From positions 21,778,455 to 21,842,454 of the forward strand of contig CAIIXF020000002.1 in the NCBI GenBank assembly GCA_903813345.2: DNA of 64,000 nucleotides, given 5' to 3'. The translations under genes were made by a program, and so were the position numbers. Of the stretch, positions 7,171-58,400 are shown piece after piece. This stretch comes from Owenia fusiformis (Eukaryota; Annelida; Polychaeta; Sabellida; Oweniidae). The notes beneath the pieces are model-generated. The model did no database searches. It was not told where the DNA came from and worked only from the letters and a program-made list of their open reading frames with translations. How positions within the stretch are numbered: position 1 is the stretch's first letter; every line of letters starts with the position of its first letter.

Positions 7171-7702
7171 AGATTCCTGATTCGATCAGCCGTTTAAGCA
7201 AGACACGATTGCCTAAAGTACTTCAGTGTTTGACTGAGTAGTCCACCCATATAAGTCCACCGCGGTACAAATAAACAGGGAATTGATTTTATTATTGGGA
7301 TTTGAACCAATAAAATTCAGACCTATGGAATTCGGACCATTGCTATTTGAACCATTTGGCTACGGGCCTGCTTATTGTTACACTGAGGAATGCAACAAGT
7401 AGTTATATAGTTGTTCCTGGCATGATTAGAACTTTAGCTTATGTGTGATTTGTTGAAGATATACTGATTTGCCTGTGTAAATCTGATTCAATTTTTTAAA
7501 ATCTTGAAGTGATAAAACGGGTTACTATAATTGTGAAGCAACAAATGGATTTAAAATGATTAACGTGGATGTGTGGGTGATTAAAATAAACCATGTATGG
7601 TTTCTTTGTTTCTCATGATCTTTTATATGATTTGGTATCACATTCTTCATCATTTGGAGGCCAGACGCTAAACCAGAAATTTTACTTTTTATTTTCAGAA
7701 TC

Positions 7703-7851
7703 ATGTTACGGTTGATTTCATTAATCTGCATGCTTGGTGCTTCTCAAGCGTTAGACAATGGTCTTGCTTTGACCCCACCCATGGGTTGGTTGTCATGGGA
7801 ACGGTTCCGCTGCAACACTGACTGCAAAAATGACCCAGACAATTGCATCAG
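7703..7851 (+). CDS. Glycosidase exon 1: signal peptide and N-terminus
   Basis: Encodes [16 protein letters not shown] (likely signal peptide) and then [19 protein letters not shown], the conserved start of the mature GH27 barrel; the Trp of MGW is a sugar-binding residue in human GLA (W47). It ends in phase 2 (AG) with donor gtaaga. The first ATG gives a normal-length signal peptide. Confidence 0.92.
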
Positions 7852-10800
7852 GTAAGAGTTAAGAGTACTCAATCAACATCATGATAATCTATGAAGATGT
7901 ATAGAAATAACACAAGAATTCTTTATCTATTTTTTGTACAACGGTTTTTATCAAGGACCCTTCAATATGCAGATATTTTACTCTTTATCTTGATATTTAG
8001 ACATTTTAACCAATATAATTGTTGTCTACGCATGTCTCAAGTATCATTTCCTCATCCCAGGTCGTATTTGTTTGTGAGTCAATGTTTTTGAATTATAACT
8101 GATAATGCCCAGTCATATGACCGTTTGATTGCTTCTCATGGACAAATTGAACAGACATGAGATGGGTAAAAACTAAGCAGACTACATGTTATACCATAGT
8201 CACTGTTCCACAGCTGGATGACTCTAACTGCAGTTAGCTTCACTCAAGATGGTTCATCAAGAATTTTGTCAACCATCTTGAATGAAGCTAACTGCAGTTA
8301 GAATCATCCAGCAGTTAAACAGTGATAGTACTGAGTGTGAGGGGAACTTTCGAGATAAATGTTTAAACATTCTACTGTTTTCAATGTGCTTTTTTTATGC
8401 CACAAAGTGGCGACATATTGTTATAGGGTTCAGCGGTTGGCATATGTAACAAATGGTATGTAGTGACATTTTGCAACTTAATGCCTTGTTTTTTATCCTA
8501 GTGAAAATCTCTTCAAAACCATGGCAGACCACATAGTATCTGAGGGTTATAAGGATGCAGGTTATGAGTATGTTAACATAGATGACTGCTGGCTGTCACA
8601 CGAACGTGATGCTCAGGGACGATTACAGGCTGATCCAGATAGGTTCCCCAGTGGTATCAAAGCTCTTGCTGATTATGTAAGCATTTCAAGGGGATACATT
8701 TTTTCATTTTAAATAGATCACCCACCCTGTCTCCAATATTTGCATTGTATTTTATGAGGTGATACAATAATGTCCTTTTAAAATAATCTGAAAATATTTG
8801 TCTTGCACTAACAGGGATATATTTTGTAATTTTATGAAGTGATAGGGTTAGCATTGATTCAGTTTGAAAGCACATTTCATCAACAAAACTTTATTTATTA
8901 AGTTGACTGTTTTTCTATGCAATCTCATACATAGATGCACCAAAGAGGTTTAAAGTTAGGAATTTACGAGGACTTCGGCTATCACACTTGTGCCGGCTAT
9001 CCAGGTAGTGAATATACCATGGCACTAGATGCACAGACATTCGCCAGCTGGGGTGTGGATTACTTAAAGTTTGATGGGTGTAATTCAGACCCACATGAAT
9101 CTAAATATGGTAGGTAGGAATTCTGGGATTGATGTATGACCTTCTTCATCCAAGAGCTTCCATTTTTCGACATTGCCTAGCTAATATTTCAAAATGTGAA
9201 TATTCAAATGGAGGTTCTCCGATAAAGGTCAATCAAAATGCAGAGAATTTTCCTGGGCATCTTTCGAAACTACTTTTTCCCATACACAAGAAATACAGGG
9301 AACTACTTTGGAAACTACTTTTTCTTTGCACATATAATTTCTCTCATAAGAGACAATGGCCTATAGCTACATTCCAATATGTTCCAGAACAATCACTATA
9401 TCACAATTAATCCCTTTCCCTTTTTTTTCGTGTAATATATTATTAATACTGAACAGGAAAATTCTCTGCTCGTCCCATATCTCTAAAATAAAATAATATT
9501 CTGTAAAGTCTTGAAACATTCGTCCTCAACTTTCAGATTCATGACAAAGGCCTTAAATTTGGCATCTATGAAGATATAGGCACACACACATGTGGAGGTT
9601 ATCCAGGGGTAGAATATTACTTTCAACAAGATGCCCAACAATTTGCCGATTGGGGTGTAGATTTTGTTAAGCTGGATGGGTGTTACATTGATAGTAAAGA
9701 ATTTGATACTGGTCAGTGAGTGCAAACTAGCGGCCATTGTACATCCTGGTATTTTTGAGGGGTATGGGTTGATATTTATGTATTGGTAAGCAAGCTGTCA
9801 GAGCAATTATAATTTTTTTTTCAGTGTTTACAAAAATAACTCTATAATTATCTGTTTGCAATAAAATGAAAGGTCTGTGTTATGAGAACTAGATTTACCT
9901 TAATTATTGAATTATAACATATTTTAATGAGAAATCACACAGAAAATTAAACCCATTAATTACTTAAATGATCACTTGGGTACAGAGTTTATAATTAATT
10001 CCCCATTTGTTTTTATTTTTATTTCATTTTTCCACTACATCTGTTTCTAAAAGAGGCTGGATTTCGTTATATCTTGCTTGTTCCAGTTTAGGCCTACTTC
10101 TTGCTCGCTCTTCGCTTATGTGTACATGTATTATGTACTTTGAATTTTATTTTATAATGTATATTGCATGTACACCCATCCACCTTCCCAATCCACCCCA
10201 ACCTTCATATAAAATTTACTTTATGCATTATGTAGTTTTTAGACTCTTTCGGAAATTTTCCCAGAATGTAGCAGATAAGTAATCTCTATTTTTTCAATGA
10301 AACTAAATGACTTTGGAATTTATGGATTTAATGTCATCAATAACACAGATGCAAGTAGGTAGTTACCAGTTTCACCACCAGGTGGCTCATTTGGGTCAGA
10401 TAGCATGGCTGGTATAGTAGAAAGTTCCCTTAATTGAATTACATCTGCTTTAGTGGTTCAATTTTCCTATAACCCTTATGTATCTAATAGTCAATTAGAT
10501 TAAAATATGTCCAGTAAAAGAAAATGTTATATGTAAAATACAAGAAAAGATATTTCACTTTTTGTGATTTTGTAACATGTAACATTTGTAACATGGGGTC
10601 TATGGGGAATCAACCCGAACTAGAAGTCACATTTTCACAGAAAATTCAATTTTCGAAGTTGATAAACAATTTTCGAAATCTACATGTACTTTCACATGTA
10701 GATTTCAAATATGACATAGGTTTGACTGAATTTTGAATATTTAACGACATAAATCAAGATTATTTCTACTCACATCTGGTCTATTGTCAACATATTAATA

Positions 10801-13800
10801 TAGCCACCTTTTTTTGACAAGCATATTACATCATCATTCTGCATTCATAACAAATTGTTATACTTTTCTCTATAATTAAGATTGAAACACTCGTGTATCC
10901 TTATTTCCCTGACAACTCTAATAATAATTTTATTTATGTAGTGGTCATAATCTGAGTCAAGACCTCAATGGGCATACATGCAAACCACCAGCAGTAAAAC
11001 CCTTAAAGCGGAACACCATTGCTTCTGTTAAAACTAAAAAGTGTTCTACTAAGGAGGTGTTATACTGTAGAGGTGTTCCACTTCTAAAAGTGTTCCACTA
11101 TACAGGTTTTACTGCATTTATCAAGATTATTTTTCTCCATTAGGTTATCCTGCAATGGGGCTTTATCTGAATAGAACAGGGAGGCATATACTCTATGAAT
11201 GTGAATGGCCTTATTATGATCGTTTCTTTGACAAGGTTAGATGCTGCAAAACTTGATGTAGCGAAATAGTATAAGAGCTTTTATGAAATTATGAATGAAG
11301 ATGGAATGCTTCCAGAAACCCTTTTATTGATAGGATGCCTTTATGCAGGCTCTTCAAGTTTACAAAATTATTAAGCTTCCTTAACAGTTGTCTTGCCTAA
11401 AAGCCTTTGTACACCCTCTCTGTCTGTCATGCTATGATTTGGGAAACGAATTCAAGACAGGAGATGATGTGGGGGGAAGGACAAGTGTGATCCCCAATGT
11501 AAATGGGCAGTGGTGTTCTGTGCCAAATTGTGTGTCAACTGTTGGTGTAAGGATATATATATATTGTTTTAGGCTACCCCACAATGAGTAGGTACCTGAA
11601 CCTTACTGGGCATAAGATCCTATACTCTTGTGAATGGCCTCTCTATGACCATGAACATGTAAGATTAAGCTTTTAACCTGTAATATGCAGCCTACAGTTA
11701 AACCCAATAAAGTGAACACCTTTTTAATGCGATTAGTCTGGAAAATTGTATAGTACAGTATTCAGTGATCTCCCCAGCATTAAAGCAAGTGGGCACAGCA
11801 CCCACCTGAAAATTCATTTGCACCCACTTGAAAATGAGAAAAATCATGAAAAATAGGCATATTTTGGGCAGAATTGTGAAAATTAGAACTTTGCACCTTC
11901 CTGAGAAAAAATCCTTGGGAGATCACTGGTATTGTATGTCAAAATCAATATTCTAGTAATTTTTCAGATTTTTATTGATCATATATCTAGGTGTTTATTT
12001 CAACTGGTTTAACTATATCACTGAATGTGCTGTTTGCTGGTACACGTTGCTCAACTGCTATTCTGTTCAATCCCACCCTAACAGCCTCGTCTGTATGCAT
12101 GATTTTGTCCCATCTCAAAGCAGGACTGCAAGGTAGGAAAAACTGTCCATCTCCTCTGCAGTCCTGCATTTGGGGAATGCCCATATACTAATCACCTTGA
12201 GAATTAGCTTTGATTATGTACAGTAAAACATCTCACATTTGCATGCAGATCAAGGAGCACTGTTAATCCAAATACCGTATTCTCTGTAATTACCGCCCAC
12301 TCTCTAATAAGCGCCCACCCCGCTTCACAAAGTTCAAGAAACATCGAGGAATCAACAAGAATTGAAGAATATATCAGGAAAAAAATATTTCTCAAAATCC
12401 AGGAGCGGGCGATAATAGAGTACTTACCCTAAAACTGCTGTAAACACGACGCGTTTTGTAATTCTATGCATCCTCTCGATACATATCTATCGATGGGTGC
12501 TTCCCACACCATACCATGCTAATATTGTCTCCAAATAGTCCATAATGAATGAAGGAATTGTTCTTTATCGTCATTCAGAAATTTCAAAAGCTACTGCGCA
12601 GATGTTCTGCGCATGTCAAGGTCGTGAACTTTCTGGTTTCTTTTTAATGTTTCTCGACTTTTACACGACTTTTGCACGAATAATGATGATCTCTCATCAA
12701 ATTAGAAATAATGTATAACTTTAGATCGATATCCAGCAGTCTCTAGTGGAAATATTGAAGGTAATCGGCGATAATGACAAAGTGGGCGTGCCGGAAATAA
12801 ATTAGACATAGGCGGGTCTTCAACCACTGTCAATATTGTCTAAGCGATCTTTACCGTATTCTCTCCAATAACAGCACTTGTCATATTATTATAAAAATAT
12901 GTTGAAGAAAATGCATTCTTGTCAAGAAAAATTGCCATACATGAAATTCCTCGGGATTTCTGATTTCTTTCATACATGGGCGCTTATTAGAATGGTCTAA
13001 ATAATGTATTTTCAATTTTCTAAACGCCCCGGGCGCTAATTACAGAGAATACGGTAATTACACTCTTTAAGATGATAGTCATCTTAAATACAAATTGATT
13101 TTGTATTCTTCCATTCAGAACCTCACCATCCAGTATATTACCATCCAACACGTCACCTCATCAGCATGCTTAAGTGAAAATATATTTTTGATTTTATTTT
13201 CATGAATAAGATATGCAAATGTGATATGTTTTGCTGTACATATTATAAGCTTGCATGGCTGCTTCTTCATATTTTAGTTTTTTTCTATCACAGGGTACCC
13301 CACAATGTCCTTCTATTTGAATCAAACAGGGAGAAAAATAGTATATTCCTGTGAATGGCCTAATTATCTGCAACAAGAAAAGGTCAATATTATGATTTTA
13401 TTTATTTTAATTAATTGCACCGACAGCTTGCAGTTTATCTATAGCACTAACTCCACATAATGTATTTCATATGTGAAGTCTTTTCATGCACAAAACTGAG
13501 ATGAAATGGGAATATGGGAGATTGATCCATTGCTTACGAATGCATAAAAAGACATGAATAGGTTGAAATATGTGTATTTAGCCCTTAATATGTTTAACAT
13601 CTCTTTTAATTAAATTATTATCTTGTTTCATATTTAACAAAATCATTCTAAATCATTGATTTTTCTTATATTCTTATCACTGACTGACAAGCTTTTTTAT
13701 TTTTGCCACTTGAAAAATGAATATTGATAAATAATAAAAAATAAACTCTTCTATTTTTTTTTTTTGGGGGGGGGGGGTATTTGAAAGGATTTACCTGAAT

Positions 13801-16800
13801 AACTGGTAGATTAATAACGAGTAGATTTACCTTAGAACCATGCAAAAATACCAGGATGTACATTGACTAGGATTAAAAGTTGTAATATGTAAACAATATT
13901 TAAATGTAGTTTTCTGATATCGAAACAAATCCATTGGCTTAAATGTTATGGTTAAAACTAAAATAAATCAGATAAGAAGGTTGTTATTGAAATATTTGAA
14001 TAAATTAGTATGCCTTATTATAAGTGCAATTTACGAATAGTTAATGTAACAATAATTATCGCAATTTGTGCTCAAATATAAATGTTCCACTTATTATGGC
14101 CCTTCCTGTACTTTGGTCGGTCATGTATGCAAGGAACATGTTTAATACCTTTTAGCTTATCCTGCATTTGGACATTGGATGAACAAAACTGGTAGACACA
14201 TGGTATACTCCTGTAGTTGGCCAGCGTATCAGAGCGGCCATATGACGGTAACGTCTTTGTGAATTCATTTCATGTCCTTTCATTTAAGAACTGAAAGTAT
14301 GGCATGATGATACTGTTATTAGTAAATACATTTATCTGAGAGAATTGAATGAAATCTGTGGGTAAAAGCTAGCATTAAGTTACATGATTTAGGCTAATAT
14401 AGTTTTGTTTTGTTTACTCATCGTTAAGCATGGTCATGTGATGGCAATGTAAATGAAAAGCATCTGTTGTTGTGGCCATTTTGGAAACTTAAATTCAAAA
14501 TGGCAGACCTAGCAGGTTTTTGAATAATATTATTAAACTAGCATACGATGTTATATTTAGAGCAAAACCTGAGACAATTGGTGATATCAGTAGCCTAAGG
14601 TCTCTTGATACCCAATGAAATACGCAATTTACTTCTATTAATTTAAATGTGATCATATGATATCATCATACCACTTATTGTAAATGCGTAAAGTCACAAT
14701 TCCGCGTATATGTTTGTCACCAGTCAGTGCTTGTGAAAAGTGTGGTACCCTAAGGCATTGTCTCAAGAGTAAGAGTATACATATTACACAAAATCCAATT
14801 TTATGACCTGTTAGACCAAGCCAGGAGAAGAGGTGCACTAAAAAGATTAGAGATGCTGCCTGTCATAACCTGCCCACTAAAGAAAAACAATTTGCACTGA
14901 TAAACCCCCTATGGGCATCTAGTGCCAATCCTGTAAATGTAGCACTAGATAATTCTACTACATGAATAAAAAAAATATGTAAAATGAATGCAAAACAATT
15001 GAGACAATGCCTAGTTGTAGACTAGTTGTTGATCACTATTTTAATATTAGGTATATAAAGGGAACATGCTCTTTACTCGTTTACTTGATTAATGGGTGAT
15101 ACTTAGATTCTTTATTACTCTCCTGTATATAAATTCATCCTTGGTTTTAGTTTGTAAAAATAACAATTTTTATTTACTAATAAATAACAGTTTGTAGAAT
15201 TAGATTAGAATTAGAGCTTTTTGCATAACGAAAATATATTTGAAAAAGTTATAAAGCTGGGTTTGATAAATATTGAAGTCATTAAAGTTAACAGTACCAT
15301 CTTAAAAAAGTGAAAGCAAATTATAATGAATTTTTTCATGTTATTTTGTCTATTGCCGTTTTAAGCTAATTTACCCCTTATTTTCCAGCCGGATTATCCT
15401 TCAATTGCCAAGTACTGTAACTTGTGGCGTAACTATGGCGATATCCAGGACTCATGGGATAGTGTCCAAGATATTATCACTTGGTTCGGGAAAGATGCTG
15501 GCAACTTCAGTGCTGTAACTGGTCCCGGGGCATGGAATGATCCTGACATGGTGTGTACTAAACATTGATAATTTCAAGCTCTAAATAGGCCTTGACACCA
15601 GAGGGTTTTTATGTCACCACCACAAGTGATGACATTGTTATAGTCTCCAACTTCTTTTGTGGATGGTGTTCAGTGTTTTGTGGTTTGAGTTCAGTGTTTG
15701 GTATCCAGTATTTGGTTGTTGGTGTTTGATGGTTGGTGTCTGTAACAAATGGCAGGTGGTGACATTTTGCATGTCTATTCCTTGTTCATTTCTGGGAGTG
15801 CTTGCTATTTTACTAGCCAAATGTGCATAATGTGATATTCTCGACTTTGTAAATGTAGTCCTATTACAGAAATTTTAAACTTAGTTTGTGAAAATTTGAT
15901 AAAACAGGAAAATTTCTAGGACAGAAATATCCAGATTTGGTGATTTGAAAAATTTGCACATTTGCATAGAATTGCCCTCCAAATGGTGCCATTTTCTACA
16001 CCTTGATATGGTGGAAAGTCCTGTTGTTTTTTCAGTTGATTATCGGAGACTATGGTTTGAGTATTGACCAGCAAAAGGCGCAGATGGCCATGTGGGCAAT
16101 GATGGCAGCACCGTTGATCATGTCGACAGATCTGCGTAACATCCGTCCCGAATCTAAGGCTATCCTGCAGAACAAGGGAGTCATAGCTATTAACCAAGAT
16201 CCCATGGGAAAGATGGGCAAGGTTGTTTACACTGTAAGTACTTCCTTGATTATCTCTGAAGGTCTAAGCAACTAGCATTAGTTAAGTAGGTATGTACAGG
16301 GTGGTCAAAAAAGTTAAAAGCTACAATTCTACGTTCTAACAATTTTTGACATATATAGAACCTATAACCTGCATGTCATGTGCATGTGTAGACTGTTCTT
16401 CTTTTAGTTCATATCAGAACATAACCTTTGATTCGATTCCCAGGGCTCGATTCAATAGTTTCTACTTAGTTCTACTTCTTCTATCTGAGCAAAAAATGTA
16501 ACTTTATGTGAACTATGTAGTACATATTACCTAAACACATCATGCACTTTGTGTGAACCACCTTAATTAATAAACAAATAACTCTGTATAAATTGCATAA
16601 ATCTATAATGTACTTGGTTTATATATTACTATGATTATGTCTAATGCATTTTACAAGTACAGGGTGGTCCAAAAAATGGTACACTTGCATTTTAAAAATG
16701 AATATTGCATTATCAGAATCAGAATGATTACTGCACTTAGTGTATATCTTAATATGTAAATGCACTTAGTTAAACCATTGACACATTCTCCTTTACAGCA

Positions 16801-19074
16801 ATCAAATGTGCAATTGTGGTCTCGACCCATTCTACCAGAGGGCAGCGTAGCCTTTGCTTACCTCTACACTGGAACGGGTGGCACCCCATCACATATACAA
16901 GATGTCGTTACAAATGCTGGACTCACGAGCTCTAGGGGTTACAATGTCACATGCGCTTTTACAGGGAAACATATTGGATATTTCAAACCTACGGACAAGT
17001 TTGATTTACATGTGGACCCTACTGGGGTTTTCCTTGGAATTGCAAAAATCTTTTAAATCACAACGAACAAGTGCCATAATGTTGGTTTAGATATGCAAAT
17101 TGCGATAATGATTTTCCCCATTGTATTGAAATTTCTCAATTTTGTATCTGTGATTGTCTCAAAACAACAATTTTATGGGTGCAATGAATTTTCACGTGGT
17201 GCCTATTTAATGTGATCACTGATAGAAGCAGTGATTTTGAAGTAATTAATGCAGATTGGATATTCAATCTACACTATAAATGTATAATATAAGAGTAATA
17301 CAATCACCATGTAGACTTGTTCAGTATTAGTACTTTTAAGTAATGATTAAACAAATGCCTTTAGAATATTGGATGCACTTCAACATAGAATTAAAAAGTA
17401 ATTTTAATGTACTGCAGTATAAGAACCCCAATAAGAACACACTTTATGTATTTTTGTGTTTGTTGAGATAGGGTAAGGGTATCTAAAATTGCAACAACAT
17501 GATATACCTATAGTATATAATATAACATGAAGTACAGTAATATGTCTTACTCAAACACCACAGGGACTAGCAAAAAATGCTCAGAGTCAGAACAATCGGT
17601 GTTCACATTTCAAGGTTCCTTCAACAAAGGAGTCAATTGGAGATAACAAAATTGAAAGTCACTTTTATGTCACCAAGTTGGTATTTAGTTAATAGTAGTT
17701 TTCAAGTGGAGTACATTGGACCACAGCTGCTTTGCATTACAGCTGCTTAATAAAATACAACTGCTTAAAAAAACACAGCTACGTTACTTTTTATACCAGA
17801 AACAGCTCAATTTGACATATTATTACATTCCAGTTGTAATCTGAAGACCTATACATTTCATTGTATTAATATAATTATGTGTAATCCTTTAAAAGGGATT
17901 AATATTATGTGTACAAAATGATCAAGATATTTAAATAAAATATTAATTTTGAAATATAATTTATAAAAGTCTTTCTTAATTAATGATGCAGTTAAGCCTG
18001 TATAAAACATTGATAACATTGCAGGTATAGTAAAAAAAATTCCCCTAAACTTGGATATTCGTCAGTTTCAATGGATCTTTTTGGTGCTTAATAACTGTAC
18101 AATTGATAATGTGTTGAATAAAACATTATCTGTCCAATACAAGATAAGATATTTCACTTTTTGTGATACCATAACATTTGCTCTATCTATCTATGGGGAA
18201 TCTGCCCATCCTAGAAGTCACATTGTCAAAGAAAATTAAAGGAGGGGGAGTTGTTTGTAGAATGAATCGGGGGAGTTTTTTCATGTGTTTTGCTTCTGTT
18301 TTTCATTCAAAAACATCAATACGCTTTATAACATTTTATTGACTATAAGATTGCACCATATAATCCCAGAAAATATTTTTCACTTTTATAAGGATTATCT
18401 TTGGATTAACACCCAGGTATTTTCATTTTTCAAGCCTCAGAGGACTAGGAATCCTTGTGCTCAACGCTTTTGAATTATATAAATACTGTTTCAAATAGGT
18501 TTCATGTATGCCAATAATTTCTCAAATTGTGTAAACTGAACACATTCCTTAATCCCTAGAATTTTCTCTTTGAGGAATTTCCCAAAGAAATCCAATGGTA
18601 CAGTTCCAAGCAGATTTTGAGATAACGAGAAAGTAAATCTTTAATACACACCTTATTGGGTTGCGATATAAACCAAAACAATTTCAATATACTGTAAATG
18701 AGTATGGAATAAGCCATAATGAATTTAACTTTGTCGATCTTATATAACTCTTATGACTCTGACTCGTATATTACACTTATAATTTCCATTCCTTGTTTCC
18801 CCAACAGAACAAAGACAAGATACAAGTGTGGCACAGGTATCTCGCAGACAGCAGCTCAGCTATAGCCATACTCAACCCCCGCACAGATGGGACCCCCTAT
18901 GAATTCACGGATACACTCTCTAACATGGGAGCCAACATGCAACCTGTGTATATGGTACATGATGTCTTCACTGGGAAGAAATTTGGACAAATTAATGTGG
19001 ATGAACCATTTAAGATTCAAGTTAACCCTACAGGGGTGGTTTTGATCAAGTGCCTCAATCAGCACCCTGTTTAA
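7703..19074 (+). CDS. GH27 alpha-galactosidase / alpha-N-acetylgalactosaminidase with alternative exon cassettes
   Basis: Secreted or lysosomal retaining glycosidase removing terminal alpha-Gal or alpha-GalNAc. Constant exons: 1 (7703-7851), 2 (8502-8676), 5 (15389-15550), 6 (16036-16233). Alternatives: exon 3 as 8935-9109 or 9537-9711; exon 4 as 11144-11235, 11573-11658, 13294-13382 or 14156-14247; exon 7 as 16799-17056 or 18808-19074. The path 1-2-3a-4d-5-6-7a gives 402 residues (human NAGA about 411, GLA 429). Signal peptide (residues 1-16), [18 protein letters not shown], nucleophile in LK(F)DGC, acid/base Asp in [16 protein letters not shown], then a beta domain. A cag just before the start (7696-7698) suggests a 5' UTR intron. 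It is closest to GLA and NAGA together; I cannot choose one name because the specificity residues vary by exon. Confidence 0.92.
8195..8330. repeat. Intronic hairpin, ~60-bp arms
   Basis: In glycosidase intron 1. The left arm 8195-8254 and right arm 8271-8330 are inverted copies with a few mismatches and a 16-base loop; the core CTAACTGCAGTTAG is palindromic. It could be a small foldback element or an RNA structure in the pre-mRNA. Confidence 0.65.
8502..8676 (+). CDS. Glycosidase exon 2 (constant)
   Basis: 175 nt, phase 2 to phase 0; acceptor tcctag, donor gtaagc. It encodes [20 protein letters not shown] and [20 protein letters not shown]. The two Asp of IDDCW correspond to D92 and D93 of human GLA, which bind the sugar hydroxyls. 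Confidence 0.93.
8935..9109 (+). CDS. Glycosidase alternative exon 3a (GLA-like, LKFDGC)
   Basis: 175 nt, phase 0 to 1; acceptor catag, donor gtaggt. It encodes [44 protein letters not shown]. The nucleophile Asp and the Lys of LKFDGC (human K168 and D170) and both cysteines of the C142-C172 pair are present. It is the same length and phase as exon 3b, 427 bp downstream, which can replace it. Confidence 0.9.
9537..9711 (+). CDS. Glycosidase alternative exon 3b (NAGA-like, VKLDGC)
   Basis: 175 nt, phase 0 to 1; acceptor ctttcag, donor gtcagt. It encodes [52 protein letters not shown]. Catalytic Asp, Lys and the cysteine pair are kept. KLDGC is the form I recall for vertebrate NAGA, while KFDGC (exon 3a) is that of GLA. 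There are no in-frame stops, so it is not a decayed duplicate. Confidence 0.9.
10344..10780. mobile_element. ~435-bp MITE, copy 1
   Basis: Begins CACAGATGCAAGTAGGTAG and ends CTACTCACATCTGG, an inverted pair. A near full-length copy is at 36561-36991 with cleaner ends (CCCAAATGCGAGTAG / CTACTCGCATCTGGG). It contains CCAGTTTCACCACCAGGTGG. Partial copies are at about 18010-18240 and 33703-33955. It lies between exons 3b and 4a. Confidence 0.65.
10995..11115. mobile_element. Small element of the ACAGTAAAACCTG family
   Basis: Inverted ends CAGTAAAACC and CAGGTTTTACTG surround repeats of GTGTTCCACTT. The same ends recur at 22289-22669, 39759-39844 and 42171-42365. It sits immediately 5' of exon 4a. 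Confidence 0.5.
11144..11235 (+). CDS. Glycosidase alternative exon 4a (ECEWPYY)
   Basis: 92 nt, phase 1 to 0; acceptor ccattag, donor gttaga. It encodes [19 protein letters not shown] and [12 protein letters not shown]. The residue equal to human GLA E203 is Glu (11203-11205) and that equal to L206 is Tyr (11212-11214), a pair found in neither human enzyme. The N-glycosylation sequon NRT, equal to human N192, is kept. Confidence 0.9.
11573..11658 (+). CDS. Glycosidase alternative exon 4b (SCEWPLY, galactosidase-type)
   Basis: 86 nt, phase 1 to 0; acceptor gttttag, donor gtaaga. It encodes [19 protein letters not shown] and [10 protein letters not shown]. Glu (11632-11634) and Leu (11641-11643) are exactly the E203/L206 pair of human GLA that admits galactose and excludes the N-acetyl group. 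The sequon NLT is kept. Confidence 0.9.
11765..11932. repeat. Dispersed repeat around a 'cacccac' motif
   Basis: Starts CAGTGATCTCCCCAGC, contains GCATATTTTGGGC and ends near GAGATCACTGG. A second, diverged copy with an insertion is at about 24610-24899. It lies in the intron between exons 4b and 4c. No coding capacity. Confidence 0.5.
12273..13056. mobile_element. 784-bp inverted-end element between exons 4b and 4c
   Basis: Ends are an inverted pair of about 26 bp: TACCGTATTCTCTGTAATTA at the left and its mirror, ending AGAGAATACGGTA, at the right. An extra TACCGTATTCTCTCCAATAA at about 12853 suggests a nested or composite copy. No transposase is seen. Confidence 0.6.
13294..13382 (+). CDS. 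Glycosidase alternative exon 4c (SCEWPNY)
   Basis: 89 nt, phase 1 to 0; acceptor tcacag, weak donor gtcaat. It encodes [19 protein letters not shown] and [11 protein letters not shown]. The position equal to human E203 is Glu (13353-13355); that equal to L206 is Asn (13362-13364), which would make the pocket polar. The sequon NQT is kept. Confidence 0.88.
14156..14247 (+). CDS. Glycosidase alternative exon 4d (SCSWPAY, N-acetylgalactosaminidase-type)
   Basis: 92 nt, phase 1 to 0; acceptor cttttag, donor gtaacg. It encodes [19 protein letters not shown] and [12 protein letters not shown]. Ser (14215-14217) and Ala (14224-14226) are the residues by which human NAGA makes room for the N-acetyl group (S188 and A191). 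The sequon NKT is kept. It is the most diverged of the four copies at the 3' end. Confidence 0.9.
14248..15388 (+). other. Glycosidase intron between exon 4d and exon 5
   Basis: 1.14 kb, AT-rich. I looked for a fifth exon-4 copy (a Cys-x-Trp-Pro codon run with flanking AG and GT) and found none. No repeat with clear boundaries is visible. Confidence 0.6.
15389..15550 (+). CDS. Glycosidase exon 5 (constant, acid/base Asp)
   Basis: 162 nt, phase 0 to 0; acceptor ttttccag, donor gtgtgt. It encodes [20 protein letters not shown], then [11 protein letters not shown]. Arg of LWRN and Asp of YGDIQ equal human GLA R227 and the acid/base D231; Asp-Met of NDPDM equals D266 and M267. Confidence 0.93.
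15608..15790. repeat. Dispersed repeat with the CATTTTGCATG core
   Basis: Starts TTTTTATGTCACCACCACAA, has an internal GTGTTTGGT simple repeat, then TGTAACAAATGGCAGGTGG and GACATTTTGCATG. Related copies are at 8393-8495, 24715-24815 (reverse), 61480-61605 and 63825-63925, so it is a moderately repeated family. All are intronic or intergenic. Confidence 0.6.
16036..16233 (+). CDS. Glycosidase exon 6 (constant)
   Basis: 198 nt, phase 0 to 0; acceptor tttttcag, donor gtaagt. It encodes [53 protein letters not shown] and KVVYT: the end of the barrel and the INQDPLG-type motif common to GH27. It can splice to either last exon. Confidence 0.93.
16799..17056 (+). CDS. Glycosidase alternative last exon 7a
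   Basis: 258 nt, phase 0, ending in TAA; acceptor ctttacag. It encodes [55 protein letters not shown]: the C-terminal beta-sandwich, with the NPTG-type motif as DPTG. Candidate poly(A) signals are ATTAAA at 17346 and AATAAA at 17749. Confidence 0.9.
   Translation, partial: QSNVQLWSRPILPEGSVAFAYLYTGTGGTPSHIQDVVTNAGLTSSRGYNVTCAFTGKHIGYFKPTDKFDLHVDPTGVFLGIAKIF
18808..19074 (+). CDS. Glycosidase alternative last exon 7b
   Basis: 267 nt, phase 0, ending in TAA; acceptor cccaacag. It encodes [59 protein letters not shown] is the usual family form. It is an independent version of the C-terminal beta domain, 1.75 kb beyond exon 7a. An AATAAA is at 19363-19368. Confidence 0.9.
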   Translation, partial: NKDKIQVWHRYLADSSSAIAILNPRTDGTPYEFTDTLSNMGANMQPVYMVHDVFTGKKFGQINVDEPFKIQVNPTGVVLIKCLNQHPV

Positions 19075-19767
19075 GAAGGATTTTGAAACAAAAGGGTTAA
19101 ATCTATGGTGACATGATCTTATCAATTAAACTGATACATGGGCAGCTGTAATGTCTAGCTACACAGAGACATAAACTGATGTTAAATGCTGTTCATGCAG
19201 AAGGAGAAATGTAAGCTGAAACATGGTTATATGTTACTTATACAAGGGGTGGTTCATAAATATTGGGACATATTTTGTAGAAAGTTTCAGAAGTCATCCC
19301 CAGAGAAACAACTGTAAGTATCTGAGTATCGTTATTTTGACTATGGACTTTCTTTTGTTCTTAATAAAGAAAACAAAGAGTGAACAAAAAGGTCCCATGA
19401 TTTGATAATTCATCTGCACTATAATTCATTGATAAGCCCTCAAATACTTATATAATCATTACTTATGCTCAATGTCTAGGTGATGTGATTGTGAATGCAA
19501 CCCATATTTTATTTTTATATCTCTTAAAATGTTCACGATTCAACTGTAGCCAGTAAAATCATGATTGAAATTGCTATATATTTTTTAAAAATAAATATTG
19601 AACAAACACTTTAATAATTATATTTTGACTGCATTGTATTTCTATATTATGTTTAATATACAGTGTAATTCTAAACAAATGTAAGACACTTGTTTTAATG
19701 CCAGGGCCTAATTCTCCAAATTATCAAGAATTATGATTCGTGGAATTCACTTATCGTTTACTGGATT

Positions 19768-19949
19768 GCCATAGCAACCTCATTTATCAAATACAACACT
19801 GCTATAGCAACCTCATTTATCAAATACAACAATGCCATAGCAACCTCATTTACTGAATACAACATTGCCATAGCAATATCATTCATCAAATACAACATTG
19901 CCATAGCAACATCAGTTATCAAATACAACATTGCTATAGCAACCTCATG
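19768..19949. repeat. 33-bp minisatellite, about 5.5 copies
   Basis: Units start at 19768, 19801, 19834, 19867, 19900 and 19933, each with GCCATAGCAACCTCATTTAT followed by CAAATACAACATT. Because 33 is a multiple of three, the minus strand stays open with an 11-residue repeat; this is not evidence of a gene. Confidence 0.9.
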
Positions 19950-22288
19950 AAAATTGCAACTACAGGAATCATAACAAAAGATGTGATCAAAAATTAGGCC
20001 CTGTAAAATATCCATGTCCGGAGATGCATCATAAATATACAATCACCAACAGCATTGTGGTTCCAGTTCAAATAAATAATTTGTTAACAAAAAGCTCTTA
20101 ACTCAGTTTAATAATTATAGTAACTATAGTAACATAGCTAAACAACCCATTGGCAATGTATGTGTTCATTCCTTGTAGCTTTTCATACAAATAAACATTC
20201 CAAATCTTTAGATTGAATTTACGATGACAAGAAATCGAGACCTAAACAATGGAGCCAACCATATCCCATGAATCTTGACTACTTCAAAGCATATGTCAGT
20301 CATCAGGTTTCATGGGAGTGTTGCTCTATTTCCGACATAATTTCCAATTTCAAGTGTATTCCCCTCCACTAAAGTTACATCTATATATTGTTCACAAACT
20401 ATACATATGCAATAACATATAGAAAGCACCAATATATAAACTTAATAAATATAAAGATGCGTTCTCTTTCTAAAACAAAACCCAATTGAGGGAATCAGAA
20501 CCCATTATGGCATAGATAAATATTTGACCTTTTAATAATACAATGATACATACATATAGAGAGTACAGAACATTACATTTTGTTTATAGTTTAACCCTGT
20601 TCCAAACATAAACCAAATAATATGCAAGTACAAACCACACTACTCTAAAGGATAAACATACTTTTAGAACAAACTTCAAAATTATCAAAATCTGATCCAG
20701 AAGCAAATATAAAAGTAAGTGTTGCCAGATTTTCTTGTAATATTACTAATAAGTCCCCCTCATTCATTATCAAAATGAAAGAAAGAGCTTATTCCTGGGA
20801 AATCCCTCTATAAAACCACTTCACTTGGTTATTTTCCAGATAACACCAACGAGCGTCTGGTGAAAACGCAGCATTATTTCAAGAAAATCCAGTTCATGAA
20901 TTCCCAGTTATAGGAAAATGGGTTCCAAATTGTACTAGGGTCTACTATGACTATTTCTTGTATAACATTCAAGGGAACAAAACGTAAGCAGGTGAAAATA
21001 TGTTTATATAGCGGTGTGGGAATCATTCATCATGACAATAATACAATGAGTTCACATATACGGTTGACAATTTAGAATTTAACTTCATGTGTCTTAATCT
21101 TTGTAAACATCTTTCAACAAAGAAAAAATACAATAATTTAGAATTCACAAAATAATACTCTAAAAAATTGGCCATAATATTTGGCATAAATTAATTCACT
21201 CACTGTCAACTTATAGACAGCATCATAATGTAAAGATGGCGGTTGCAATTTCAAATCATTCTGAGGATTTCTACCGCCACATTTTAAAATAAATAGATGG
21301 TGCTACTGTACATTGAGCATTTAGCACCAAAATTAAGAACACAGATACAGTAATAAGTACACAAACATTTACAGTCTCCAAGATGAACACTTTAAAATTT
21401 CAAGGATTTTCTAGATACAGAAATGTTCACCATGGAGAAAATTTTAAGGTACAGTACAGTATACACATGTATGGTAGATCATTCATACATGCGCACTTAG
21501 ACCGGCTTAATTCGTTGCTTGTTAGCTCATTTTTTCAAAAATTCAGGGCTGAAAAATTGGCAAAACAGGTTGAGAAGATTTAACATGAAAAGACAATTTC
21601 CCAAACTTAACATATATGTGCATATAATCAATGATACCTGGTACATGAAATGAATGAACAAATGCAAACAAACTCCCCTGGCAGAATCAGTCTTCAACTA
21701 AGCAGATGTTGAGAACTACTCTGGGAGTTTGAAATGCACAAAGAAAGTCTCAACGAATATACAATAACATGAAGGCCTTTAGAATTTTCAAAATTGAAAC
21801 TTCTTTAAATCAATTGTCCTTCCACAAGGATTTTGAAAAACAATGAGTCTTAATGTTTACTGTAATTAATAAATGTACAAGACAGTCAGGATAATTTACA
21901 AATGTCATTACAATTTTTGTGTGCGTATATGAGTGTATTATGTGCACAATAATTTAGATTTAAAATATTTACAGATTCAATATTCTCATATTTTCACTGC
22001 TCATTTGATGATTTACATAATAACGAGTATATGATGAATTAACATTTAGCAACAATTTCATGTGCAGTTTGGAACTTTTCTGATAATTTTCAACAATGTT
22101 ACATCAAAAGACTCAACATTAATAAATACATGTAAACAACCTAGTAGTACTTCAAAAATACATGAATTCAATGGTTAGTTCTCCAGGTAGCTGTTATTTA
22201 AGGCATTATGTCTAACATCTCTGATGCATATCTAACTTTGTTTTTAATACTTTGGGGGGGGGTTCCCTTTAGCCATTATACTTACATA

Positions 22289-52400: not shown

Positions 52401-55400
52401 ACATTCTGATTACTAGACCCCCCTTCTTATCTTTCTCATTGGAAAGTTCAAGACAAAGTGGCAGTGTGTATCACGATGCACTACACAATTTGTCTGATAT
52501 CTTTACAAATCCACCATACACATTCTGATTACTAGACCCCCCCCCCCCCTCTTATCTTTCTCATTGGAAAGTTCACGACAACGTGACAGTGTGTAAAGAT
52601 ATCAGACAAATTGTGTAGTGCATCGTGATACACACTGCCACTTTGTCTTGAACTTTCCAATGAGAAAGATAAGAAGGGGGGTCTAGTAATCAGAATGTGT
52701 ATGGTGGATTTGTAAAGATATCAGACAAATTGTGTAGTGCATCGTGATACACACTGCCACTTTGTCTTAAACTTTCCAATGAGAAAGATAAGAAGGGGGG
52801 GTCTAGTAATCACAATGTGTATGGTGGATTTGTAAAGATATCAGACAAATTGTGTGGTGCATCGTGATACACACTGTCACTTTGTCTTGAACTTTCCAAT
52901 GAGAAAGATAAGAGGGGGGGTCTAGTAATCAGAATGTGTATGGTGGATTTGTAAAGATATCAGACAAATTGTGTAGTGCATCGTGATACACACTGTCACT
53001 TTGTCTTGAACTTTCCAATGAGAAAGATAAGAAGGGGGGGGTCTAGTAATCAGAATGTGTATGGTGGATTTGTAAAGATATCAGACAAATTGTATAGTGC
53101 ATACTGCATAGTGATACACACTGTCACTTTGTCTTGAACTTTCCAATGAGAAAGATAAGAAGGGGGGGGTCTAGTAATCAGAATGTGTATGGTGGATTTG
53201 TAAAGATATCAGACAAATTGTATAGTGCATACTGCATAGTGATACACACTGTCACTTTGTCTTGAACTTTCCAATAAGAAAGATAAGAAGGGGGGGGTCT
53301 AGTAATCAGAATGTGTATTGTGGATTTGTAAAGATATCAAATAAATTGTGTAGTGCATTGTGATGCACACTGTTTGTCTTGAACTTTTCAAAGAGCAAGA
53401 TAGAGAGGTTCTGATAAATCAGACTGTGTATGGTGAATTTGTAAAGATATCAGACAAATTGTGTAGTGCATCGTGATACACACTGTCACTTTGTCTTGAA
53501 CTTTTCAAAGATGTATAGTGCATACTGCATAGTGATACACACTGTCACTTTGTCTTGAACTTTCCAATAAGAAAGATAAGAAGGGGGGGTCTAGTAATCA
53601 GAATGTGTATTGTGGATTTGTAAAGATATCAAATAAATTGTGTAGTGCATTGTGATGCACACTGTTTGTCTTGAACTTTTCAAAGAGCAAAATAGAGAGG
53701 GTCTGATAAATCTGACTGTGTATGGTGAATTTGTAACTTTAATTACCGTTTCAAAGTGCTATATTATCATTGTCTGGATTGACTGCTTTCTGCCATATAA
53801 AAATTGTTATCAAAATTCCAGCATACTCTGACAGGTCAATCCTTATATTGAGGTTGACATTTCAAATAATTTTATGTTTTTTTTGTTTGTTATAAATAGA
53901 GTCATCGGGGCTCATGAATAAGATATGAAAAAATTTGAAAACACATGTTTTTATTTTCAGGTGGATTTGCAGTGACCCAGTCTATATTCTGTACAGCATG
54001 CAACAAGCAGATTAACCCTAATGGTGCTGGTAACATCAAGAGACACCCTGTATTGAAGGTTCTTGTCTGCAAGGTAAGAACAATGAACCAATCAAATTAC
54101 ATGTAACAAACAGATCAACCAATCGAATTACATTTCACAAACAATCAACCAATCAAATGATATCTAGAGAGATCAACCCCAATTGTGTGTTCCATAACCA
54201 TTTTCGAAATCAAAGTTGTTTAGGTTTGGAATTTCTATAAAACTCCTGCTTCTCCACTTCAGAGATGCTATAACTGGTACACAAGTGCTGAGATAGACCA
54301 GGACAGTGATGGGATGGATGAGCAGTGTCGCTGGTGTGGAGAGGGAGGAAACCTGCTTTGCTGTGACACGTGTAGTAATGCCTTCTGCAAGGGATGCATC
54401 AAACGCAACTTGGGAAGAGCTGAATTATCAGCTCTAATGGACTTAGGTGAGTGACTACTAATAAGAGAGGGAATATCCCAGAATTCAGAGATGAACCTAT
54501 CTTCATGTGAAGGTGAACCTCTAAATTTTCATTTTTGTACCAGTATATATTCACAATTCTTTTCAAATTAAATCATCAACATTTTCACTCAATGTCAGAG
54601 GACAGATATAAATTGTAGAAGACATGGTAAATTTTTAAAAAAAGTGGAAAGAACAATGCAATACAAATTACTTTTGCTACTACATGTATATTGAAATTAG
54701 TTTACCAACATTCAATAATACACAAGAGACCGAAAATGTAAATCAAGTAACATTAAAAAACCAAGCAGCAAAATGATGTATTGTGAACTGTGAACCATTA
54801 TGTGCATTAATCTACCCCTTTTTATTAGCATAAAATTTGGGATATGTGTGGGCTTTTAAGATTTCATCCTGCTTCTTTGTGATTCCAGATGACAAAGAGA
54901 AGTGGAAGTGCTATGTCTGTAATCCTATCCCATTGGCTGGCCTCATCAAGAAATGTGACGAGATCCTGAAAGAATTCACAAAGTACCACATGGAGCAGGA
55001 ACGTAAACGAGCTGCATCAGCTCAGGTCCACGAAGTAAAGAAGAAGCCTCTTCCTGGTAAACCTTCACCTGTACCTAATAGGCCACCTGGTCGTGTTCAA
55101 ACTGGGAACTTGAAGGTTGTTTCAGGCCCCAGGCAAGTCATTATGGCCAACCAGGCTACTAGAGGTGGTATGCAACCGCAGCGTGGTGGAATCCGTCCTG
55201 GAATGCCACAGAGAGGAGGTATCCAACAAAGAAATTTTTCTCCTCGACAACAACAGCAGCAGCAACGTCCTACAGGGCAGGTTAGACCAGGACAGGTTAG
55301 ACCAGGACAGAATATACCACCTGGCCAAATTAGACGTGTCAATAACATGCCTGCAACCAGCATGGTAACGCCATTTAGAATAAATGAAAGCAATTTGGGA

Positions 55401-58400
55401 ATCTCCTTAGAGAAATTCCTAGCAGCTACCCAATCTATGATGATGCTGCTCCAGAGTCTTAAAAATGACTACAATGGTACCAAAATCGCTAAATCAGAGG
55501 TTGTGAATCGATTACGTCGTGCTCTTGCCTCATATAAGGAAAATATCCGTCTTATTGAAACCTGCCAAGTGAAGCCGGCAATGAGGAATAAACAAGGACA
55601 ACCAGTAGGAGTTAACAAGCAGACTTTTACAGTTGGGAATAAACAGTTCCAGTCAATTCCAGGGACTAGACAGGTCGTTACAACTGGAGCAGGACGAGGA
55701 GGTAGAACTGGTCGACCCACAGTAAGGTCAAATGTACAGAAAGTTGCTCCAGCAAAACCAATACGGCCAGCGGGTGAAGTGATCAGTGAATCTCACCGTT
55801 TAGATGGATCTTATCTGATTGTTAGTAATGGTAAAGGAGGCACCGTTGAGGTCAAAGTTGATGAGAATACATTGCAGAATCTTGCGGCAATTACAAGTGC
55901 CGCAGCCAAAGATCAGCAACGGGAAGCAACAAAGCCAAAACCTGCCAGTGATCCTGATGAAATCATCATCCTTGAATCAGATGAAGAAGACGAACCCAAA
56001 AAGGCTAAAGCCTCCCCTAGTGAGGTTGGAGATGGTGATGCAAAGATGACCAATGGGACAAAAGGTGGAGAAGATGACACCAAGAAAAACTCTGAAGATG
56101 ATGTTGTCACAAACGATGATGACGATGATGGAGATGACAATGAGAAGAACAAAAAAGATGGAAATAAATGGAAAATGAAGCTTAATTTTGGTACCAAAAG
56201 GAAACGTGAAAGTGGATCATCAAGTGAATCTGACACCAAAGATAACACTAAAGAGGACAGCGATGAGGAAGAGGCAGAATCAATGAGAAAAGTTCGTCCG
56301 GGACCAAAAAGTTTTAAACTAAGAAATAAGAACTCTCCAATGAAAAAGGCTACTTCTGCCAAACAGGCTGTTCTGAATAAGGAACACGAAAATACAGAAA
56401 CAGTAAAAGAAGAACCCAAAGATGAGGCAAAAGATGAAGAGATGAAAGAAGAAAAAGATATCTCTGATGTTAAAGAGGAAGATGATGCTGTAAATGATAC
56501 CACCGAAAATGAAGAAGTGAAAGATATCACAGAAGATACACATGAAGAAGTTAAACAAGAAGGTGACACAATGGAAGATGACCCTAGTGAAGTATTAGAA
56601 GAAAGTGAAGAACATAAAGAAAATGGTCACAATGTGGAAGAAAATGCTGATGATGTAGATATGATTGATGATTCAGAAGATACACATGAAACAATAAAAG
56701 AGAAAGTCAAAGAGAAAATGGAGGATGAGTTAGGACAGGCTGATTATGTAGATGGTACAAATGATCATATGACTTTACTATGGACCCCAGATGATATAAG
56801 CAGTGATCATAAAGGTATTAATAGTGGACAAGGGCCATCATCAGATTATTTAGATGGAGTAAATGACAATGTCACAATTATAGCCAATCCTATAGATACT
56901 CAAAAAGAACTGTTTACATCATCAGAAGATGAATCTGAAAGTAGTGGAAGTATAAATAAAGTTATTACTGGAATAACAGTTAATTATGACAATAGTCAAC
57001 AATCATCTAGTGATCCAGAGAGTGATAAAGAAAGCATAAAAGAAAATGGAATTAGTACTGAGGACTCAAGTAAAGAGGATGAAGAAAACACAAAAACTAA
57101 CCATGATAGTGAAAGGGAAAATATTGACAATGGAAATGAAAATAATGACAGTGGAAAAGAAAAAAATAATGACAATGAAAGTAAAATATCTGACAGTGAA
57201 AACACTACACCTGGTGCTGAGCAAACATGTGAATCTGAAAGTAAAACTGAAAAAGAACAATCTGATATGAAAGAATCAACTGAACCAAAAGTCACGAAAG
57301 AACTTGATAATAATGATGACAGTGATACTATGGATCAGGATATTAAATCTGTAAAAGATGATATCAAAGATGATGATGATAATGAGAAAAGTGAAAAACC
57401 TCAAAAGGTTTGGAAGGAGGTTAATATACAAGATGACAGTAGTAGCAGTGATGATGATGATGATGTTACCCCTACCCCTGTCAAAGCTTTCTTCAAGCAA
57501 TTTAAATCCACCCCTGAAGAAGAGGAAACAGTTGATGCGGGAAAGGTTGAGGTACAAGATGACCCTGACAACTACAGAATTGAAATGGATGATTCCGATG
57601 CTAATGATGACACTGAAATGATGGACACTAGTGTTGTCAATTTAGAATCTGATCAGTTAAATGAAGATGAAAGTTTAAATGTCGATAACCCTGATAACTA
57701 CAGAGTTGATATTGATTTAGAAGAGGAAATCGAACCTAAGAAAACACCACCAAAGAAAAAATGTGGTCCGAAATCTAAGCGTAAAAAAGTTGATAGCGAG
57801 TCTGATGATGAGAATGATGATCGTACTTTGGAAGATGTAGAAGCACAGAAAGAGCTCTTAAAAGAGATGCTTGATTCTGAGTCCGAGTCCGACTCTGAGT
57901 TTGAGTTCTCTGACTCTAGTGAAGATGGAGTTGATAAATCTTCAGGTGATGAATTCAAACCTCAGAACAGCTCAACGTCCAAGAATTCAAAGAAACTTAA
58001 AGGTAAGTCAGATTTTCCACACAAAGCAACTAATACCCAGGCCTCTGCCCATTGTGATAAACGTATCATTGAAAATAACATAATCTTAAAATTAAAATTA
58101 ACATTTTCTCCAGTAGTCTACAGTGATTGCTGCTACTCAAAATGGAATTGATGAAGGGATAATTACAATCAGTTCCTGGATATACCTAAAATTGCCATAA
58201 TATTTGAAAAAATGCTGAGGATGCAATATAGCCAATATCACTAGAGAAATTGGGAGTAATTTTTTATTTTACGTTTTTGATTTGCATTTCAGGAAAGGAT
58301 AGGTCCAAATTGAAAGATGGCAAGAAATCTCTAAGAAAGCGACACAAAAGTTCAGATAAAAATGACAGTAGCCGTGATAAAATATCTGAGAAAAGGCGAC

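Follow-up and report, generated by a model that had tools for sequence, protein, structure and literature searches.

Can one animal gene supply both alpha-galactosidase A (GLA) and alpha-N-acetylgalactosaminidase (NAGA) by splitting the two activities through splicing, or does a single enzyme have both activities, as has been suggested for Caenorhabditis elegans? The question is raised by a GH27 gene of the annelid Owenia fusiformis, which lies on the forward strand at positions 7703-19074 of a 64,000-nt stretch of contig CAIIXF020000002.1 (positions 21,778,455 to 21,842,454, assembly GCA_903813345.2), hereafter called the window. In vertebrates the two enzymes, deficient in Fabry and Schindler disease, respectively, are encoded by separate genes and are a familiar example of duplicated genes that have specialised through two residues of the substrate pocket. 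We propose, with a probability of roughly 0.8, that mutually exclusive splicing of the O. fusiformis gene yields GLA/NAGA-type enzymes and selects between a GLA-like and a NAGA-like specificity. The exon anatomy is solid; exclusive splicing and a change of enzyme are strongly inferred.

This GLA/NAGA-type gene has one copy each of exons 1, 2, 5 and 6, two alternative versions of exon 3, four of exon 4 and two of the last exon; AG/GT splice sites and compatible phases are present throughout (Table 1). The arrangement had been described in an initial annotation of this DNA, and all of its exons, sites, phases and open frames were recovered; no further convincing exon copy was detected on either strand of the whole window by tblastn with all exons or with group profiles of exons 3, 4 and 7. 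All 16 combinations that take one copy per class are open over 400-405 codons, with the sole stop at the end, so that the suggestion of up to 16 proteins is right as coding capacity. Sixteen free combinations are, however, a capacity and not a result. The lengths of the copies restrict what else could be translated: both exon 3 copies measure 175 nt (1 mod 3) and the exon 4 copies 86, 89 or 92 nt (2 mod 3), so that the frame is lost when either class alone contributes two copies or none. Indeed, only 18 of the 128 possible inclusion sets are open, namely the 16 that take one exon per class and two from which both exon 3 and exon 4 are missing; the latter two would be without the nucleophile. 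The sets ending in exon 7b were sorted by the distance from stop to junction; nine of these 64 are open, and in each of the remaining 55 a stop precedes the last junction by more than 55 nt, a position at which nonsense-mediated decay is expected. The clusters thus consist of homologous adjacent exons that share their phases and break the frame on double inclusion, as is characteristic of mutually exclusive exons, and the last exons exclude each other because exon 7a has its own stop.

The choice among the exon 4 copies is of particular interest, a point that goes beyond the initial annotation: GLA positions 203 and 206 lie in this exon, and it is by these two pocket residues that alpha-galactosidase A and NAGA are told apart. 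In chain numbering and aligned columns, human GLA (1r46) has E203/L206 within SCEWPLY and human NAGA (3h53) S188/A191 within SCSWPAY. The Glu/Leu pair of alpha-galactosidase A is encoded by exon 4b alone and the Ser/Ala pair of NAGA by one of the four copies, exon 4d, while 4a and 4c combine Glu with Tyr and Asn, respectively. Exon 4d is also the sole copy that matches chicken NAGA at more positions (17/31) than GLA (12/31), whereas the counts for 4a, 4b and 4c are slightly higher with GLA (19/31, 17/29 and 19/30) than with chicken NAGA (16/31, 16/29 and 18/30). In the PDB chain 3lx9, which is labelled alpha-galactosidase A and carries the engineered pocket swap, SCSWPAY takes the place of the SCEWPLY of 1r46; since 4b carries the GLA pair and 4d the NAGA pair, the exchange of exon 4b for 4d makes the same two-residue swap, among other changes. 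Sections of two published reports describe that L206 and E203 keep larger C2 substituents out of GLA (PMC7918333) and that the S188E/A191L exchange in human NAGA increases alpha-galactosidase activity, with the fold differing between reports (PMC5478728, citing Tomasic et al., 2010). The Ser/Ala pair of 4d may have been inherited, or it may have arisen in convergence with vertebrate NAGA.

Table 1. Exons of the O. fusiformis GH27 gene in the window and two further GH27 genes elsewhere in the assembly.
Feature	Position	Strand	Description
E1, coding part	7703-7851	+	constant; ATG at 7703; signal-peptide-like start (by eye); mature N-terminus LDNGL...
E2	8502-8676	+	constant; IDDCW within (GLA D92, D93); ends at Tyr123
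E3a	8935-9109	+	alternative; Y134, C142, K168, D170 (nucleophile) and C172 retained
E3b	9537-9711	+	alternative; Y134, C142, K168, D170 and C172 retained; 34/58 identical to 3a
E4a	11144-11235	+	alternative; pocket pair E203/Y206
E4b	11573-11658	+	alternative; pocket pair E203/L206, as in human alpha-galactosidase A
E4c	13294-13382	+	alternative; pocket pair E203/N206
E4d	14156-14247	+	alternative; pocket pair S/A, as in alpha-N-acetylgalactosaminidase (human S188/A191)
E5	15389-15550	+	constant; 162 nt as in human GLA; C223, R227, D231 (acid/base), D266, M267
E6	16036-16233	+	constant
E7a	16799-17056	+	alternative last exon, own stop; first ATTAAA 17346, first AATAAA 17749
E7b	18808-19074	+	alternative last exon; ATTAAA 19125; AATAAA 19363, 19590
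Other GH27 gene with ricin-type lectin stretch	L001 4611-5846	-	
Other GH27 gene with ricin-type lectin stretch	L002 4364-5539	+	

The membership of the gene in the family is clear. Two of the 16 isoforms were scanned against Pfam, and their Melibiase_2 catalytic domain scored 484.9 and 480.1 bits (cut-off 23), the best solved relatives being chicken NAGA and human GLA. Whichever exon 3 and exon 4 copies are used, D92, D93, Y134, K168, D170, Y207, R227, D231, D266 and M267 are present, the residues of the GLA catalytic set (aligned columns computed), and cysteines 142, 172, 202 and 223 are likewise part of every product. GLA positions 134, 142, 168, 170 and 172 are retained in both exon 3 copies, positions 202, 204, 205 and 207 in all four exon 4 copies. 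The latter also share the sequon N192-x-T194, which has a role in lysosomal targeting. The N-terminus resembles a signal peptide by eye, and the encoded enzymes may be lysosomal. In exon 7b the C-terminal beta domain is clearly recognised (Melibiase_2_C, 64.2 bits; cut-off 22.5).

In the proposed mechanism, one of the two exons 3, one of the four exons 4 and one of the two last exons would be joined to the constant exons 1, 2, 5 and 6. The choice of exon 4d would create the Ser/Ala pocket of NAGA and that of exon 4b the Glu/Leu pocket of alpha-galactosidase A, while 4a and 4c, which keep the Glu and vary residue 206, would probably give alpha-galactosidases with an altered tolerance around C2. 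The exon 3 alternatives would leave the nucleophile as it is but alter what surrounds it, and the exon 7 alternatives would exchange the C-terminal beta domain, the last exon presumably being picked through splicing and polyadenylation, since AATAAA and ATTAAA signals follow both. That all exons are included, that the choice is regulated, that wrong products decay and which substrate each form has is inferred.

How freely the classes combine is a separate matter. In a narrower form of the proposed mechanism, the gene would make a few coupled forms, for instance a NAGA-like 3b-4d-7b and GLA-like forms with 3a, one of 4a, 4b or 4c, and 7a. We consider such fixed pairings quite possible, if somewhat short of an even bet, since exon 7b is nearer to chicken NAGA (26/78) than to GLA (19/82), as is exon 4d, and a few forms would be biologically sufficient; however, every junction phase is interchangeable and exon 3b is no nearer to NAGA than exon 3a (34/58 for both with the chicken enzyme; 30/58 versus 33/58 with the human one). 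The broadest view, to which we can subscribe only tentatively and with some doubt, is that the enzymes deficient in Fabry and in Schindler disease both have their counterparts on one pre-mRNA, that two more specificities come with 4a and 4c, and that free mixing with the two exons 3 and the two C-terminal domains creates up to 16 glycosidases tuned to tissue or life stage.

The exon copies look old and constrained rather than a product of chance, since their synonymous sites are near saturation while nonsynonymous change is limited: across eight pairs of copies the proportion of synonymous differences is 0.58-0.83 and that of nonsynonymous differences 0.24-0.43. The synonymous excess (Fisher test on rounded counts) gave p values of 1.3e-7 for exon 3 and 2.6e-6 for exon 7; among the six exon 4 pairs they range from 6.5e-5 to 0.089, and five are below 0.05. 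Moreover, the positions that are invariant between copies track those invariant between GLA and NAGA (exon 3, p 1.1e-5; exon 4, p 0.033). These data bear on the suggestion that some copies are unused relics of duplication and that the gene makes only one or two proteins. Such an explanation would account for the divergence of exon 7a (24.1 bits) and for exon 4 donors that pair weakly with U1 (-4.1 to -5.6 kcal/mol), the donors of the constant exons 2, 5 and 6 being alike (-4.2 to -4.9); we consider it unlikely, since all eight alternative exons have retained their frames and splice sites despite the near-saturated synonymous sites, and every copy of exons 3 and 4 has kept its active-site residues.

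With regard to their origin, the boundaries from 2/3 to 5/6 match those of human GLA. In the relevant part of PMC10432374, the last positions of human GLA exons 2 and 3 are c.369 and c.547, respectively, exon 4 has 92 bp (c.548-639, from Gly183) and exon 5 has 162 bp (Pro214-Met267). In O. fusiformis, exon 2 ends at Tyr123, the exon 4 copies span 86-92 nt from position 183 and exon 5 covers 162 nt (214-267), which implies that the duplicated unit is an exon common with human GLA. The occurrence of GLA-like and NAGA-like exons side by side in one gene might also be explained by the fusion of two ancestral tandem genes, one GLA and one NAGA, followed by the loss of the duplicate constant exons. 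This is very improbable, because the copies of each class stand together (3a 3b 4a 4b 4c 4d ... 7a 7b) and do not form two gene blocks, no second exon 1, 2, 5 or 6 is present in the window, and the constant exons, when summed, are about equally near to GLA (131/212) and to NAGA (128/212 for chicken, 125/211 for human). The grouping of the copies and the equal distance of the constant exons favour repeated single-exon duplication within one gene; a tree of the constant exons (six rows) did not separate GLA, NAGA and the O. fusiformis gene.

A strong acceptor-like site, TTTATTTTCAG (7688-7702), ends 4 nt upstream of the ATG and suggests that a 5' UTR exon, as yet unseen, or a trans-spliced leader probably precedes exon 1, so that the gene may start before 7703. 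That separate transcripts start inside the cluster, their exons never competing on one pre-mRNA, might be read from this acceptor but is scarcely credible, since exons 1 and 2 with the signal-peptide-like start and D92/D93 are found once in the window, upstream of all alternatives. The non-coding parts of the locus hold several repeats. Intron 1 contains a long inverted repeat, seen by eye, that resembles a hairpin-type mobile element (8208-8330), and two introns harbour repeat pieces (10518-10649 and 18117-18240) that are 82-84% identical, have the same order and are probably copies of one mobile element. A tandem array with a 33-nt period lies directly downstream of the gene (19714-19977).

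That one gene was diversified at the level of exons and not of genes, as the initial annotation had put it, is supported both by the sequence of the locus and by the remainder of the genome. No second GLA/NAGA-type gene was detected in the 498 Mb assembly with PF16499, one isoform and chicken NAGA as queries, although runs of N could hide one. Besides the locus in the window, the same queries matched two further GH27 genes, one on contig C8 and one on contig C11. When single exons are compared, the top score in the PF16499 and chicken NAGA searches fell to the gene on C8 because its exon is long; in identity to chicken NAGA, the catalytic exons of the window reach 51-61% versus 38-45% for C8 and C11, apart from the short exon 4 matches (43-61%). 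The two genes share 28-51% with the window isoform, and by eye they show no C-E/S-W-P pocket motif. Their open frames match Melibiase_C and a ricin-type lectin domain without a Melibiase_2_C match. The lectin stretch lies between the catalytic and the C-terminal domain, and its match just passes the cut-off on C11 and falls short of it on C8. They look like members of another GH27 subfamily.

Several points weigh against the proposed exon switch. The genes on C8 and C11 may themselves supply alpha-galactosidase activity. Among the copies, the synonymous excess is not significant for exons 4b and 4d (p 0.089), nor is the relation between copy invariance and GLA/NAGA invariance for exon 7 (p 0.094), and exon 7a matches Melibiase_2_C only marginally (24.1 bits against the cut-off of 22.5). 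Exon 4d carries Ala at position 183, and in human GLA the G183A exchange is linked to disease, with a reported activity of 22.4% in the part of PMC9737616 that deals with it. The means by which exclusion could be enforced are a further difficulty. The locus offers neither U2/U12 incompatibility nor too-short introns: all 10 donors are U2-type GT and none is U12-type, and the shortest introns between copies have 337 and 427 nt. Dscam-type exclusion operates through pairing between docking and selector RNA. In 13 of 14 intron pairs, no RNA pairing above that of shuffled sequences was found. Within the exon 4 cluster none of the 10 intron pairs beat all six shuffles, the 4a-4b intron with the 4b-4c intron tying with the best shuffle, and in the exon 3 and exon 7 clusters the pairing of the four intron pairs was reached by 5 to 22 of 40 shuffles. 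The pairing of the introns that flank exon 4b (11336-11485 with 12059-12208; -76.2 kcal/mol) was reached by one of six and then by none of 80 shuffles, and with 14 pairs tested this is not significant. A real pairing would cause exon 4b to loop out, but we treat it as a lead only. The same applies to the motif TGCATG, one of seven splice-factor motifs tested, which occurs seven times in the introns against a shuffled mean of 3.1, a count reached by four of 100 shuffles.

Elsewhere in the window, an acidic- and serine-rich open frame of 1104 codons (54837-58151) gave no Pfam match; its start is reminiscent of the end of an ATRX ADD domain. On contig C262, four homeodomain matches fall within one open frame of 1717 aa (14791-17163). 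The largest contig has 11 homeodomain matches on one strand inside 0.5 Mb, in keeping with the Hox cluster that PMC9977687 places on chromosome 1 of O. fusiformis, and a search for COX1 found nothing.

If the proposed exon switch is correct, splicing performs in nature the pocket swap that engineers used to interconvert the human enzymes. Duplication of an exon of about 90 nt rather than of a gene would then appear as an alternative route to the GLA/NAGA split, and the exon 4 copies would present four naturally occurring pockets within the same scaffold, which bears on the evolution of C2 selectivity and on replacement enzymes for Fabry disease. The kind of mechanism is already known from coq-2 and CYP4F3. 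In the titles and abstract openings of the open-access papers listed, with subscription papers and preprints outside this scope, we found no description of an exon-switched gene for an alpha-galactosidase, NAGA, a lysosomal enzyme or a glycoside hydrolase.

The nearest precedent in mechanism is COQ-2, for which sections of PMC7434440 describe mutually exclusive exons 6a and 6e that rebuild the enzyme core and switch the substrate, an exon found in helminths, annelids and molluscs, and call such core switches rare. In these sections, coq-2 represents one class of two exons in a prenyltransferase, with RNA and genetic proof, whereas the O. fusiformis gene has a 2 x 4 x 2 arrangement in a lysosomal-type glycosidase and is known from sequence. 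CYP4F3, cited in the same sections, likewise switches substrate specificity by splicing, but is a P450. With human GLA and NAGA, the O. fusiformis gene shares the family, the catalytic residues and the pocket pairs E/L and S/A, and with GLA also the exon boundaries 2/3 to 5/6; the human enzymes differ in being encoded by two separate genes. In having one gene stand for both GLA and NAGA it resembles gana-1 of C. elegans. According to sections of PMC548690, both activities were detected in worm homogenates and were reduced by RNA interference, and no alternative splicing of gana-1 was seen by reverse transcription PCR, as in the human and mouse orthologs. The worm gene is proposed to encode a single dual-activity protein, whereas the O. 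fusiformis gene might split the two activities by splicing.

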